A DNA stretch of 64,000 nucleotides from Haladaptatus sp. ZSTT2 (GTDB taxonomy: Archaea; Halobacteriota; Halobacteria; Halobacteriales; Halococcaceae): contig NZ_JBAMHQ010000001.1 of the NCBI RefSeq assembly GCF_037081775.1, forward strand, positions 1,798,001 to 1,862,000, written 5' to 3'. The notes beneath the pieces are model-generated. The model searched no databases and was not told the origin of the DNA. It worked only from the letters and a program-made list of their open reading frames with translations. Below, piece after piece: positions 22,684-28,727 of this stretch. The translations under genes were made by a program, and so were the position numbers. The first letter of the stretch is position 1. The number at the start of each line of letters is the position of its first letter.

Positions 22684-23712
22684 ATGAACGGCACGCTCGA
22701 AGACGGCGTCGTCCACGTTGGCGGGAACGCCCGCCAGCAGTACTACGACGCCCGTGGTTACGGCCGCCCGCTCGGGGGCAACGAGGTCGAACTCGACCCC
22801 GTCGAAGCGGCGCACCTGCTCTTTCGCGGCGACCTTGACACGGTCGATGGGATGGACTTTCAGGCGTTTTTCTCCCACGTCACCGGCGACGGCTTCGCCG
22901 TCCGCTTTCAGGTCTACCGCGACCTCCGCGACCGCGGCTTCTATCTCTCTCCCGCACGCGAGGGCTGGGTCGAACCGACCGACGACGAGGACTTCGTAGT
23001 CTTCCCCCGCGGCAACGGCCCGTGGAACGACGAGATAGCCTATCGCATCCGCGCCGTTGGCGAGCGCCAACGCGTTCCCGCGGCTTCTTTGGGAACTCTC
23101 GTCCTCGCCGTGGTAGACGAGGAGGGTGAAATCACCTACTTCGACACCGACGAACTCAACATCGACGGCAGTTCGACGTTTGACCTCCCCGCCTGCTCGG
23201 GGACACTCATCGACGACCGCGTCGTCGTCTGGGAGCCGCCGAGCGACCTCTATGCGTCAGCGTTCTACGGCCAGCCACTCGGTGGTCGTCGGATGGAAGA
23301 CGGCCCGGTGCAACTCTCGCTGCTCGAAGCCGCCTACCTCGCTGCCAACGGGACGCTCTCAGTCGAAGGAGGCGTTGACGCAATCGTTGAGCGCGGCCGC
23401 GAAGCCGAAGGCGACCGATTCGACCGTCGCCTGACGGTGTACACCGAACTGCGCGACCGGGACGTCGTCCCCAAAACGGGCTTCAAATTCGGCGCTGACT
23501 TCCGGACCTACGCCGAGGTGGAGTCGGTCTCCGACCTGAGCCACTCCGAGTACCTGATTCGCGTGCTCGAACGCGACCACGCCTTCGCCCTGCGCGAGTT
23601 GGCGCTCGACGTGCGACTCGCCCACGGGGTCAGAAAACGAATGGTTTTTGCGCTGACGGATGCGAACGACGGAACAGAGACCTGGTTGTCAGTAGGTCGA
23701 CTCACACCATGA
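22684..23712 (+). CDS. endA: tRNA-splicing endonuclease, two-repeat form
   Basis: A 342-residue enzyme with two tandem EndA repeats (about 1-170 and 171-342), the form that works as a homodimer in haloarchaea. The second repeat holds the catalytic region (YTELRDRDVVPKTGFKFGADFRTY ... SHSEYLIRVLE), with the expected Tyr, His and Lys. It cuts bulge-helix-bulge motifs in pre-tRNA. Its stop overlaps trpS by ATGA. In haloarchaea, pre-tRNA-Trp carries an intron processed by this enzyme, so the pairing makes sense. Confidence 0.95.
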   Translation: MNGTLEDGVVHVGGNARQQYYDARGYGRPLGGNEVELDPVEAAHLLFRGDLDTVDGMDFQAFFSHVTGDGFAVRFQVYRDLRDRGFYLSPAREGWVEPTDDEDFVVFPRGNGPWNDEIAYRIRAVGERQRVPAASLGTLVLAVVDEEGEITYFDTDELNIDGSSTFDLPACSGTLIDDRVVVWEPPSDLYASAFYGQPLGGRRMEDGPVQLSLLEAAYLAANGTLSVEGGVDAIVERGREAEGDRFDRRLTVYTELRDRDVVPKTGFKFGADFRTYAEVESVSDLSHSEYLIRVLERDHAFALRELALDVRLAHGVRKRMVFALTDANDGTETWLSVGRLTP

Positions 23713-25241
23713 CACGCGATACAGACCACAACACGGGAGCAGCGGGCGAGACAGATGCGACGACGCTCGACCCGTGGGGTTCGTCGACCATCGCTGACTA
23801 CCGAAAACTGTTCGAGGAGTTCGGCATTGAGGAGTTCGACGAATTGCTTGCCGACGTGGAGAATCCACATTACCTGATGCGACGGGGGGTCATCTTCGGC
23901 CACCGTGACTATCGGGCCGTCCTCGACGCGATGGCCGCGGGCAAGCCAACCGCTGCGCTCTCGGGATTCATGCCAACGGGCGACCCCCACATCGGCCACA
24001 AACTCGTTTTCGACGAAATCATCTGGCATCAACAGCAGGGCGCGGACGCCTACGCCCTGATTGCTGACTTAGAAGCCCACGCCGCCCGCGGCCTCTCGTG
24101 GGAAGAAATCGACGAACACGCCCGCGACTACCTACTGAGCCTGCTCGCGCTCGGCTTCGACCCTGAAGCAGGCGAACTGTATCGTCAATCAGAGAACCGC
24201 GGGCTGCAGGATCTCGCGTTCGAACTCGGCATCAAGGCCAACTTCTCCGAACTGGAGAACATCTACGGCTTCGACGGTGAGACGGACGTTTCGCATATGC
24301 AGAGCGTCGTGACGCAAATGGCGGACATTCTCTACCCTCAACTCGACGAACCGAAGCCGACGGTCATTCCCGTGGGGCCGGACCAAGACCCCCACGTTCG
24401 CCTCGCCCGTGACCTCGCCGCCCGGATGCGCTTCTTCGGCGTCACCAAAGCGTTCGCCAGTTTCGAAGCCAGTGGTGACGAACTCGAACTGCTCGGGGCG
24501 GCCCACGGCGCGCTCTCGGCCGACGACGGCGACACCGTCCGGTGTGAGGACGCCGCTGCATGGCTCCGCGAACACGGCAACCCCGACGACGACGGCTTCG
24601 GCAGCGTCGTCGCCAAACTCGACTCTGCCGGGAAAGAGCCGCTCGAACCACGGGTTCGGTTCGTTGACCGCAACGCCACCAAAGAGGCGTTCGAGGCGCT
24701 CATCGAAGCCGTCGAGGGCGAAAAACGCGTCTACGACGAACACATCGACTCGTTCGACCTCACCCGCGAGGAGGCAGAGGCGTTGGCCCGAGAGGTCGAA
24801 CTCGACAACGGCGGCTACGGCTTCTACGCGCCGTCCTCGATTTATCACCGCTTCATGACCGGGCTCACTGGCGGGAAGATGTCCTCCTCGATTCCGGCGA
24901 GTCACATCAGTCTGCTCGACGACCCACAGGACGGCTACGACAAGGTGAAATCCGCGACGACGGGCGGCCGCTCGACGGCCGAAGAACAGCGCCGACTCGG
25001 CGGCGAGGCCGACAAGTGTCCCGTCTACGAACTGTACGCCTACCTGCTCGCCGCGGACGACGACGCCTTCGCGAAGAAGGTGTACGACGAGTGTGTCGGC
25101 GGCGAGCGCCTCTGTGGCGGCTGTAAAGAGCAGGCCGCAGAGCTGATGAAGGAGTTCTTAGAAGACCATCAAGAAAAGCGCGCAGAGGTCGAACACCTCC
25201 TCAAAGACGCGGACATCGAACTCGTCTCCTCGCGTCGCTGA
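23709..25241 (+). CDS. trpS: Tryptophanyl-tRNA synthetase
   Basis: A 510-residue class Ic synthetase of the archaeal/eukaryal type. HIGH motif in GDPHIGHK near residue 99, KMSKS as GKMSSS near residue 396, and an archaeal N-terminal extension (DPWGSSTIADYRKLFEEFGI). A CxxC pair (CGGCKEQ) lies near the C-terminus. It attaches Trp to tRNA-Trp. Translation is coupled to endA through the ATGA overlap. Confidence 0.97.
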   Translation: MTRDTDHNTGAAGETDATTLDPWGSSTIADYRKLFEEFGIEEFDELLADVENPHYLMRRGVIFGHRDYRAVLDAMAAGKPTAALSGFMPTGDPHIGHKLVFDEIIWHQQQGADAYALIADLEAHAARGLSWEEIDEHARDYLLSLLALGFDPEAGELYRQSENRGLQDLAFELGIKANFSELENIYGFDGETDVSHMQSVVTQMADILYPQLDEPKPTVIPVGPDQDPHVRLARDLAARMRFFGVTKAFASFEASGDELELLGAAHGALSADDGDTVRCEDAAAWLREHGNPDDDGFGSVVAKLDSAGKEPLEPRVRFVDRNATKEAFEALIEAVEGEKRVYDEHIDSFDLTREEAEALAREVELDNGGYGFYAPSSIYHRFMTGLTGGKMSSSIPASHISLLDDPQDGYDKVKSATTGGRSTAEEQRRLGGEADKCPVYELYAYLLAADDDAFAKKVYDECVGGERLCGGCKEQAAELMKEFLEDHQEKRAEVEHLLKDADIELVSSRR

Positions 25242-25290
25242 GTCGGTGTTCAATATCTGCGGTTCGCGCTCTCCAGCAATGTCCGGAACG

Positions 25291-25298
25291 CTTTTTAG
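25291..25298 (+). promoter_or_regulatory. TATA-like box of the pheS leader transcript
   Basis: The box ctttttag is centred about 27 bp before the ATG at 25322. Initiation would therefore fall on the first codon of the Phe-rich leader peptide, making it leaderless and translated from the very 5' end. This is the normal haloarchaeal geometry, so it supports the short ORF as the first thing translated. Confidence 0.55.
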
Positions 25299-25321
25299 CG
25301 AATCCGCTCGTATCACCGGAT

Positions 25322-25399
25322 ATGGCATCCGAACCCACGCCTGTGTTGACCGGCGACGACTCTCGTGTGACCCCCGGGTTCGGCTTTTTTCGGTTCTGA
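25322..25399 (+). CDS. Phe-rich leader peptide upstream of pheS (candidate attenuation peptide)
   Basis: A 25-codon ORF, MASEPTPVLT... ending GFGFFRF and a TGA at 25397-25399. Phe occupies positions 20, 22, 23 and 25: four of the last six residues, and none before them. It lies 105 bp before pheS, which encodes the Phe-tRNA synthetase alpha subunit, and a TATA-like box is correctly placed for a leaderless transcript starting at its ATG. Bacterial pheST and pheA leaders have the same logic: scarce Phe-tRNA stalls the ribosome and changes RNA folding. Such control is not established in archaea, so the function is inferred. Confidence 0.6.
   Translation: MASEPTPVLTGDDSRVTPGFGFFRF
25329..25390 (+). 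terminator. Candidate attenuator: 8-bp stem followed by T6, inside the leader ORF
   Basis: CCGAACCC (25329-25336) is perfectly complementary to GGGTTCGG (25376-25383), and after one C comes TTTTTT (25385-25390). The T6 is also the two Phe codons of the leader. The loop is 39 nt and holds a smaller CGCC/GGCG stem. A ribosome moving through codons 3-5 would melt the left arm. Downstream, CGGTTC (25391-25396) can pair with GAACCG (25458-25463), and TAGCG (25401-25405) with CGCTA (25462-25466), giving alternative folds before pheS. Confidence 0.45.
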
Positions 25400-25503
25400 A
25401 TAGCGCGGCGGTGGAATCCGGCTTTCGGGCCAGAGGAAACCGGCGTGAGCGCATCCGGAACCGCTAACTGACTTGCTTGCAGTGTACGCGACAACACCAA
25501 ATA

Positions 25504-27009
25504 ATGAAACTACCCGAACCACAGGTCGCGGTCTTAGAGGCCGCGTCCGCCACAGACGCACAGACATTCTCCCGACTGGCGGAGGCCACCGACCTCCCCG
25601 CAGAGACGGTCGCCGGAGCCGCCTTCGCGCTCGAAGCCGAGGGCCTCGTTACCGTTACAGAGGAAACAGACGAGACCGTCACCATCACCGACGAAGGACG
25701 CGACTACGCCGAGGACGGCCTCCCCGAAGTCCGCCTCTACGAGGCAGCGCTCGAACAGGGCGCTGCCGAGGAATCAGTCGAGATGGGGCGCATCATCGGC
25801 GCCTCCGGCCTTGGCGGCCCACAGGTCAACATCGCGCTCTCGAATTTCGCGCGCAAAGGCTACGGCTCGATAGACAGCGGCGCAGTCTCGGTGAACCCTG
25901 ACGCAAACCCCGACGCAGACCCAGAAGCGACCGCTCTCGCCGCACTCATCGCAGGTAATTCCGTCGAAGACAGCGACGTTCTCTCTCAGCTCTCTCGTCG
26001 TGACCTCGTCGAAGTCGCAGAATCGACCATCCGCTCTGTCCGCCTCACCGACGCTGGTGTCGATGCCCTGATGGCAGGGGTCGAAGTGGCAGAAACCGTT
26101 GGTCGGCTCACCACCGAGATGCTCACTTCCGGCGACTGGCAGGACGTCGAGTTCGCCGAATACAACGTCGAAGCCGACGCAGAGGAGTACCGCGGCGGCA
26201 AAGAACACATCCTCCGCCAGACGGCAAACCGCGTCAAAGACGTGCTCGTCGGCATGGGCTTCCAGGAGATGGAAGGCCCGCACGCGGATAGCGAGTTCTG
26301 GATTAACGACTGTCTGTTCATGCCCCAAGACCACCCGGCGCGCACCCACTGGGACCAGTTCGCCCTCGACGTGCCGCCGATGGACAACCTCCCCGAAGCC
26401 CTGCTCGAACGGGTGCACGACGCTCATCTCTACGGTGCGGGCGAGGACGGCGAGGGGTACCACTCGCCGTGGACCGAGGATGTCGCCCGCGCAATCGACC
26501 TTCGGGGGCACACCACCTCGCTCTCGATGCGGTATCTCTCCGGTCACGAGGTCGGGGAACTCGAAAAGCCGTCTCGGCACTTCTCCGTCGAGAAGGTGTA
26601 CCGCAACGACACACTCGACCCGACCCACCTGCTCGAATTCTACCAAATCGAGGGCTGGGTCATGGCCGACGACCTCTCGGTGCGCGACCTGATGGGAACG
26701 TTCACCGAGTTCTACGAGCAGTTCGGCATCACCGACTTGGAGTTCAAACCGCACTACAACCCCTATACGGAACCGAGCTTCGAGCTATTCGGCCGCCACC
26801 CCGAGACCGGCGAAATCATCGAAATCGGGAACAGTGGCATCTTCCGCCGCGAAGTGCTCGACCCCCTCGGCGTCGAGTGCGATGTGATGGCGTGGGGACT
26901 TGCCTTAGAGCGGTTGCTCATGTTGATGCACGGCTTCGAAGACATCCGCGACGTACACGGCACGCTGTGTGACCTTGACCTGCTGCGAAACGTGGAGGTA
27001 GTCTACTAA
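25504..27009 (+). CDS. pheS: Phenylalanyl-tRNA synthetase alpha subunit
   Basis: A 501-residue archaeal/eukaryal-type alpha subunit. N-terminal winged-helix DNA/tRNA-binding domains (about 1-190), then the class II catalytic core: motif 1 region GFQEMEGPHADSEFWIND, motif 2 around FSVEKVYRNDTLDPTHL, and motif 3 GLALERLLML. With PheT it forms the alpha2beta2 enzyme that charges tRNA-Phe. The ATG at 25504 (MKLPEPQVAVLEA) is the family start. The stop overlaps the pheT ATG by one base. The leader peptide described separately precedes it. Confidence 0.97.
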   Translation: MKLPEPQVAVLEAASATDAQTFSRLAEATDLPAETVAGAAFALEAEGLVTVTEETDETVTITDEGRDYAEDGLPEVRLYEAALEQGAAEESVEMGRIIGASGLGGPQVNIALSNFARKGYGSIDSGAVSVNPDANPDADPEATALAALIAGNSVEDSDVLSQLSRRDLVEVAESTIRSVRLTDAGVDALMAGVEVAETVGRLTTEMLTSGDWQDVEFAEYNVEADAEEYRGGKEHILRQTANRVKDVLVGMGFQEMEGPHADSEFWINDCLFMPQDHPARTHWDQFALDVPPMDNLPEALLERVHDAHLYGAGEDGEGYHSPWTEDVARAIDLRGHTTSLSMRYLSGHEVGELEKPSRHFSVEKVYRNDTLDPTHLLEFYQIEGWVMADDLSVRDLMGTFTEFYEQFGITDLEFKPHYNPYTEPSFELFGRHPETGEIIEIGNSGIFRREVLDPLGVECDVMAWGLALERLLMLMHGFEDIRDVHGTLCDLDLLRNVEVVY

Positions 27010-28727
27010 TGCCCGTTGTTGACGTTGATCCAGACGAACTGCGCCGGCTCACCGGCCACGACGAAAAGAGCGACGACGAACTCAAAACCGACCTGTTCGG
27101 CCTCGGCCTCGAATTCGAGGGCGAAACCGACGACGGCGAGTTCCAACTGGAGTTCGCCCCGGACCGCTTAGACCGTCTCTCGGTCGAGGGCGTCGCCCGG
27201 TCGCTTCGCTACCAGTACGGTGACGACCGCGGCGTCTACATCCCACGGACGAACGACGCGGACTGGTCGATTGTCGTAGACGAATCGGTGCCCGACGAAC
27301 GCCCCTACGTGACCGGAGCAATCGTCCGTGGCGTGAACCTCTCAGATGAGGGGCTCGAATCACTCATCCAGCTCCAAGAAAAACTCCACGCGACGATGGG
27401 GCGCAAGCGCGCCAAAGGCGCAATCGGCGTCCACGACCTGACCATGCTCAAGGGCGCGAAAGCGACCGACGAAGCGGGCGATCAGTGCATCACGTACAAG
27501 GGCGTTGACCCCGACGGCGTCACCTTCGTCGCGCTCGATTCAGATCAGGAACTCACCCCGCGCGAAGTGCTCACGGAACACGAAACGGGCACGAAGTACG
27601 CAGACCTCGTGGAAGGCCTCGACAAGTTCCCGGCCATCTACGACGATATCGGCCTGTTCTCGTTCCCGCCGGTCATAAACGGCCGTCGCACGGAGGTTTC
27701 GACCGACTCGCGCGACCTGTTCATCGAACTCACGGGTACGGATCAGTGGACCGTAGACCGGATGTGTAACATCATCTGCTACGCACTCGATGCCCGCGGC
27801 GGGACTGTCGAACAGGTCACGGTCGAGTACCCGGACCGCGAACTCACGCGCCCCGACTTCGAGGTGGAGACGAAAACCGTCACTCACGAGCGCATCGAAA
27901 AGCTGCTTGGCCTCGACTTCGAGGAGAAAGAAATCGTGGACTTGCTCGAACGCGCCGGCCTCGACGCCGAAGTCGAAACCGTCGGTGACGACGAACTCGC
28001 CTACGAGGTGTCCATCCCGCCGTACCGCGTGGACGTACTCCACCCGCTCGACATCGTGGACGACATCGGGCGGGCCTACGGCTTCAACGACCTCGAACCG
28101 ACGTACCCTGATGTGTCGACCGTCGGCGGCCTCCACGAGCGCTCGCGGCTCGAAACCGCCGCGCGCGACACGCTCGTCGGGCTTGGTTTCCAAGACCTGC
28201 TCAACTTCCACATGACGAGCGAGGTCGAAAATTTCGAACGCATGGGAATTTCGCCCGATGACGACGGCCTCGGCGCGGAAACTCCGGTGACCATCACCGA
28301 ACCGTACAGCGAGGAGTACACCATGCTTCGGACGTGGAACCTCCCGTCGCTCATGATGGTCTTAGAGAACAACACCCACCGGGCGTACCCACAGGACTTG
28401 GCGGAAATCGGCTTCGTCGCCCACCGCGACGACTCGCTGAACACCCGCGTCGCAGAGGCACGGCACGTCGCCGCCGTCCTCGCGCGCAACGACGTGTCCT
28501 ACGAGGACGCGAAAGCCCGCCTGCAGGCGCTCTGTCGCGCCTTCAACGTGGAACTCGAAACCCCGGCAACTCAGCATCCGTCGTTCATCGCCGGGCGTAC
28601 CGCCGCGGTCGTCGTAGACGGCGAGGAAGCCGGCGTCATCGGCGAGGTACATCCGGAAGTGCTCGTCGAACACGGCGTCGAACTGCCCGTCGTCGGTTTC
28701 GAGTTCGACCTGAGCGCGCTGCAGTAA
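27009..28727 (+). CDS. pheT: Phenylalanyl-tRNA synthetase beta subunit
   Basis: A 572-residue short archaeal beta subunit with the B3/B4 editing domain in the middle, the B5 domain (LTRPDFEVETKTVTH), and a catalytically inactive class II-like C-terminal core. The B3/B4 domain removes mischarged Tyr. Coupled to pheS by a one-base overlap (TAATG). It ends at 28727, and the convergent pyrD stop begins at 28728, so no spacer separates the two genes. Confidence 0.97.
   Translation: MPVVDVDPDELRRLTGHDEKSDDELKTDLFGLGLEFEGETDDGEFQLEFAPDRLDRLSVEGVARSLRYQYGDDRGVYIPRTNDADWSIVVDESVPDERPYVTGAIVRGVNLSDEGLESLIQLQEKLHATMGRKRAKGAIGVHDLTMLKGAKATDEAGDQCITYKGVDPDGVTFVALDSDQELTPREVLTEHETGTKYADLVEGLDKFPAIYDDIGLFSFPPVINGRRTEVSTDSRDLFIELTGTDQWTVDRMCNIICYALDARGGTVEQVTVEYPDRELTRPDFEVETKTVTHERIEKLLGLDFEEKEIVDLLERAGLDAEVETVGDDELAYEVSIPPYRVDVLHPLDIVDDIGRAYGFNDLEPTYPDVSTVGGLHERSRLETAARDTLVGLGFQDLLNFHMTSEVENFERMGISPDDDGLGAETPVTITEPYSEEYTMLRTWNLPSLMMVLENNTHRAYPQDLAEIGFVAHRDDSLNTRVAEARHVAAVLARNDVSYEDAKARLQALCRAFNVELETPATQHPSFIAGRTAAVVVDGEEAGVIGEVHPEVLVEHGVELPVVGFEFDLSALQ

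Follow-up and report, generated by a model that had tools for sequence, protein, structure and literature searches.

A predicted phenylalanine-sensing leader of pheST conserved across Halobacteria

Introduction

Phe genes of bacteria are known to be controlled by ribosome-mediated attenuators, including pheL, the leader of pheA in E. coli, and pheM, the leader of pheST. Both place a short ORF with clustered Phe codons beside RNA stems, 5' of a gene for Phe-tRNA synthetase or Phe biosynthesis. In leaders of the tnaC type, a ribosome that stalls as it finishes a small ORF masks a site of factor-dependent termination, and the TrpY-type operator of archaeal trp genes acts by repression at the level of DNA. 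Leader-peptide attenuation depends on the coupling of transcription and translation, and archaea couple both. The mechanism is known in bacteria and has not been established in archaea, and the literature we searched, which lay mostly outside the subscription journals, describes no archaeal leader-peptide attenuator.

Here we analyze the region 5' of pheS in a stretch of 64,000 nucleotides from Haladaptatus sp. ZSTT2 (contig NZ_JBAMHQ010000001.1, positions 1,798,001 to 1,862,000), referred to below as the window. A preliminary description of the window, made from its letters, had likened this region to bacterial pheST/pheA attenuation.

Results

In the window, trpS (23709-25241) is followed by pheS and pheT, and a short leader ORF sits in the gap between trpS and pheS (Table 1). 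The preliminary description had the letters and coordinates right in placing a TATA-like box 27 bp before an ORF of 25 codons, and the four Phe residues it counted within the last six codons lie at codons 20, 22, 23 and 25.

Table 1. Features of the pheST leader region, in window coordinates
Feature	Position	Strand	Basis and remarks
P1, BRE CGGAACG plus TATA-like CTTTTTA	25284-25297	+	Read from the sequence; similar box in relatives
BRE CGGAACG	25284-25290	+	Part of P1, read from the sequence
TATA-like CTTTTTA	25291-25297	+	Part of P1; ATG about 27 bp downstream
Leader ORF MASEPTPVLTGDDSRVTPGFGFFRF*, 25 codons, ATG 25322 to TGA 25399	25322-25399	+	Sequence, and conservation across Halobacteria
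HP1 5' arm CCGAACCC, nt 8-15 counted from the 5' end of the transcript presumed to be leaderless	25329-25336	+	Covariation; independent co-changes on the tree
HP1 3' arm GGGTTCGG, coding G-F-G, immediately 5' of further Phe codons	25376-25383	+	Covariation; in frame
Cluster of Phe codons, codons 20-25 (F G F F R F), with T6 (25385-25390) inside it	25379-25396	+	Phe counts
HP2, hairpin immediately 3' of the stop codon, with (Y)GGA 25413-25415 / GAA(A) 25436-25438 as its internal loop	25406-25445	+	Invariant columns, covariation
P2, second promoter-like element CGGAACCGCTAAC	25456-25468	+	Kept in loci without a leader; putative promoter from its BRE/TATA likeness
pheS, encoding PheRS alpha, the presumed target of control; pheT next at 27009-28727	25504-27009	+	Gene order trpS, pheS, pheT

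A comparison of 80 pheS loci from named species, together with further loci from the same genus, family and class, found a short ORF of like design 5' of pheS in most sampled Halobacteria. The peptide consensus is MA[SP]E[SP]...GFGFFF, followed by a few more residues and the stop. Phe residues are confined to the leader end: the last 12 positions hold 352 Phe among 1128 residues, and the other positions 9 among 1463. The alignment of haloarchaeal upstream regions that the preliminary description had proposed did recover a conserved Phe-ending short ORF with a covarying stem 5' of pheS. The leader is a conserved element and more than a product of chance, since ORF, stem and Phe codons recur together at this position in most sampled Halobacteria.

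The leaders range from about 23 to 48 codons, and the body of the peptide varies. The distance from the ATG to the HP1 3' arm takes the values 47, 50, 53, 56, 59, 68, 113 and 119 nt, some of them with large insertions that stay in frame, and these steps indicate that the reading frame is kept; every clear length class is in frame, with one ambiguous row (L008, 75 nt). This conservation of frame suggests that the ORF, rich in codons for the cognate amino acid, is very probably translated.

A covariance model built from the leader module detected it at E<1e-4 in 94 of 116 Halobacteria genomes, and approximately a fifth of the sampled genomes have no leader. Strong matches number one per genome and lie 5' of pheS, the gene for charging the amino acid in question, in every locus checked. 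Apparent second copies were rejected as weak matches, the best of which (G080, E 5e-5) falls inside a coding region. When 148 genomes of the phylum were searched with strict filters, all 19 matches were halobacterial, and approximately 123 non-halobacterial genomes of the phylum gave zero matches in that search. One locus (L123) may carry a decaying leader 5' of pheS, having a promoter and part of HP1 left and the start codon and Phe run lost. In a congener of the window genome (G002, locus L082), the flank 5' of P1 is wholly unlike the trpS end seen in the window, and promoter and leader are kept; the conserved block starts just before the promoter, and the breakpoint of the rearrangement coincides with the promoter. 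A tally of how often the leader was gained or lost along the tree was discarded, as duplicate loci had been labelled as having no leader.

Nearly all relatives have a P1-like AAC-G-CTTTT box, at about -36 to -25 relative to the ATG of the leader. In the window and its relatives alike, the core promoter lies in the range of about 22-30 bp before the start codon that is characteristic of leaderless mRNA. Given a BRE/TATA about 27 bp before the ATG, the leader transcript is probably leaderless, starting at or next to the ATG. A P2-like element is present in nearly all loci, including those that have no leader, and in relatives it stands 29-41 nt before the pheS ATG. The consensus of P2 in the window and relatives reads CGGAACCG[C/T]TAAC. 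In two genomes of one genus (L154, L155) about 40 nt separate the stop codon of the leader from the start of pheS; both HP2 and P2 are missing, and HP1 and the Phe codons are kept. With P2 missing, P1 is left as the sole promoter-like element in the gap before pheS at these two loci and probably drives the gene, the alternative being read-through from an upstream gene. A third locus (L171) is also without HP2. The loss of HP2 from these three loci indicates that the putative core of the element is HP1 plus the Phe codons.

Covariation was assessed in 47 sequences, with 500 shuffles and slid registers as controls. Across the nine pairs of HP1, 97.9% of cells are paired and two-sided changes occur at six pairs, a compensatory example being CTCGAACGCG/CGCGTTCGAG in Halorubrum. 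None of the 500 shuffles matched the observed values for HP1 and HP2, and slid registers failed. With relatedness controlled by a pheS tree, the two sides of four HP1 pairs change together approximately 13 times and separately 0-1 times; single pairs are mostly non-significant on the tree, and the argument lies in their sum. In almost every leader the 5' arm starts at ORF nucleotide 8, and HP1 dominates the predicted ensemble for approximately 80-90% of sequences. The stem that the preliminary description had drawn between 25329-25336 and 25376-25383 is therefore borne out both as a perfect pairing in the window and by conservation with covariation in relatives.

HP2 starts at the stop codon in nearly all leaders and consists of a covarying inner stem and a looser outer stem, both helices covarying, with an internal loop in which GGA faces GAA in invariant columns. 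It is missing from the minimal forms and from loci that have no leader. An alternative register pairing YGG with CCG fits worse than the chosen one, and readings of HP2 as a K-turn, T-box or hammerhead were rejected by eye. Rfam gave no match above threshold for the leader or HP2, and neither a T-box sequence nor a specifier loop was found in the leader.

The preliminary description had further read the stem and the T6 run, which are separated by a single C (25384), as a terminator. T-runs of at least 5 occur in 55 of 91 leaders and runs of at most 3 in 32 of 91, and many leaders carry TTCTTCTTC in place of the T6 run. The share of TTT among Phe codons is 32% in the leaders and 4% in pheS, but NNT among the remaining leader codons is likewise 32%, and the placement of TTT does not favor runs (OR 1.3, p 0.41). 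Selection for a U-tract was dropped for these two reasons, which indicate that the T6 of the window is an apparent side effect of Phe codons in a leader whose codon choice is relaxed. The stem and T6 do not hold up as a shared terminator: the T-run is not conserved and is accounted for by codon bias, and an intrinsic terminator with a U-run before the structural gene was accordingly not found as a feature of these leaders. Relatives share no conserved U-run, and no terminator between HP2 and pheS is conserved.

The further pairings proposed as alternative folds (25391-25396 with 25458-25463, and 25401-25405 with 25462-25466) exist as letters but are not conserved in relatives. The first strand is supplied by the CGG-TTC with which the ORF ends in this genus, and other leaders end otherwise; the partner strand is part of P2, which is conserved also without a leader. 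In the leader alignment neither HP1 arm has a second conserved partner, HP1 and HP2 are compatible, and no mutually exclusive terminator and antiterminator hairpins are found.

Other genes of the class were inspected for comparable leaders. The valS gene is preceded in the same class by leaderless mini-ORFs of two types. In the first (L248-L268, a type close to G000:C1:1877435-1878634), ORFs of 9-12 residues, such as MSVMSSVVRY and MRVVAVVRE, carry an in-frame GTA-GTA in 21 of 22 genomes, mostly read V-V-R, and nearly all share the core GTAGTACG; GTA is a rare codon, amounting to 1.6% of Val codons in pheS. In the second (L203, L204, L206, L271-L297), longer mini-ORFs end in VFVGAP- or VVGAV-like sequences, with GTA and then a GC hairpin GGGGC...GCCCC (variants GGGCC/GGCCC and GGGGCG/CGCCCC) that mostly encloses the stop, a motif present in 20 of 32 loci. 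These valS leaders appear analogous to the pheST leader. No convincing leader was found for pheA (13 genomes), trpC (14), ileS, leuS or most PF00587 synthetases. The trpC upstream regions (L157-L170) have no Trp leader; their promoters share a conserved palindromic sequence containing TGTACA, which recalls an operator of the TrpY type. Upstream of thrS, two species of one genus (L223, L226) have in common a leaderless mini-ORF, MVGVRFTGAF[A/P]RF.

Discussion

Our analysis points, with some reservation, to a Phe-tRNA-sensing cis leader of pheST that would act by ribosome-mediated attenuation on a leaderless mRNA, a U-rich site being shielded by the stalled ribosome. Its predicted role as a Phe sensor is strongly supported by the comparative data; the leaderless transcript, the stalling, the premature termination with its factor and the sign of the response are what we infer. 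Transcription from P1 would begin at or next to the ATG, and a ribosome loading at the 5' end would cross HP1 and meet two to four Phe codons in and just behind its 3' arm. Since the Phe codons abut HP1, a ribosome slowed there must open the stem, and from the geometry only it would follow that HP1 folding depends on ribosome position. With ample Phe-tRNA, the ribosome would reach the stop and leave, allowing HP1 and HP2 to fold and leaving the U-rich Phe codons naked; this would bring transcription to a premature end via FttA/aCPSF1, with the polymerase approximately 30 nt ahead in HP2, and/or at the T-stretch where one exists. With scarce Phe-tRNA, the ribosome would stall on the Phe codons, hold HP1 open and cover the U-rich site, and the polymerase would reach pheST. 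Basal pheST expression would come from P2.

The Phe codons form a U-rich stretch within a G+C-rich leader, and FttA/aCPSF1 binds U-rich RNA at a point that trails the polymerase by 30-36 nt (PMC11616081), a reach that would place the polymerase in HP2. In vivo termination in H. volcanii was 95% for T5C and 59% for a hairpin (PMC7237163). The proposal that a stalled ribosome shields the site draws on both sets of data, and the exclusion of FttA by ribosomes in archaea is itself a hypothesis (PMC11616081). Several observations speak against attenuation. P2 would bypass the switch; an antiterminator excluding HP1, a U-run and a terminator are not conserved in the leaders compared; and the leader is missing from some genomes of the class. 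The simplest form of the model also leaves HP2 not well explained.

The main rival, which we regard as unlikely, retains the stalled ribosome and dispenses with termination: the ribosome would protect the leaderless 5' end, or keep a nuclease from acting within the U-rich Phe codons or HP2, so that pheST mRNA is stabilized or its processing is changed. Such a role would be consistent with the lack of a conserved terminator, with the resemblance of the GGA/GAA loop of HP2 to a recognition site and with the endonuclease and 5'-3' exonuclease activities of FttA (PMC11616081), but processing at HP2 cannot be a general step, as some lineages keep HP1 and the Phe codons without it. It is improbable that HP1 and T6 instead make up an intrinsic terminator of the bacterial type, with the two further pairings as the alternative fold. 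The window genome and 60% of its relatives do have a T-run after HP1, and the T5C and hairpin values from H. volcanii (PMC7237163) suit such a terminator; the T-run, however, is not selected beyond relaxed codon use and the alternative folds are not conserved. Timing also opposes a plain hairpin-T6 terminator read by the first ribosome, because the polymerase makes the Phe codons together with the T-run and beyond it, and would have to wait for that ribosome to report on Phe.

The near-universal P2-like element, present even where the leader is missing, raises the idea that a short independent P1 transcript reads into P2 and hinders or helps it, Phe sensing setting how often polymerases arrive. 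The minimal loci of one genus (L154, L155), which have no P2, speak against this idea, which we regard as improbable. Finally, a conserved micro-protein gene that merely happens to lie near pheS would account for an ORF that is very probably translated, as its frame conservation suggests, but the body of the peptide is free to vary, conservation falls on the residues encoded in the HP1 arms and by the Phe codons, and the position is tied to pheS, making this explanation very improbable.

The valS leaders suggest that the pheST leader is not alone. We tentatively propose, as a possibility we would not yet bet on, that archaea possess a ribosome-mediated attenuation of their own, in which leaderless mini-ORFs of haloarchaea sense tRNA charging through Phe codons for pheST and tandem rare Val codons for valS, and that in pheST the sensor codons may double as the FttA termination site. 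A class-wide example in a genetically tractable group would make archaeal coupling, control by FttA and the sensing of tRNA charging testable at one short locus.

A comparison with the described systems shows both likenesses and disparities. Like the T-box elements of bacterial pheS, the haloarchaeal leader would place pheS under cis control by tRNA charging, but it has no T-box motif and no Rfam match above threshold, and its sensor would be an ORF. The TrpY-type operator is likewise an archaeal control of an amino acid gene, but one that represses at the level of DNA. As in leaders of the tnaC type, a stalled ribosome would mask a factor-dependent termination site; unlike them, the haloarchaeal leader would rely on cognate codons and an FttA-like factor, in place of a nascent peptide that senses a ligand and of Rho. 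Of the design of the bacterial pheST/pheA attenuators, to which the locus was originally likened, the Phe-codon leader peptide and a covarying stem are present, and the exclusive hairpins and U-run terminator are not. Compared with pheL and pheM, the haloarchaeal leader has neither a conserved antiterminator pairing nor a conserved U-run terminator; it is archaeal, with probably leaderless initiation, and its sole universal stem is contained within the ORF, the sensor codons occupying the 3' arm of that stem and the stretch beyond it.
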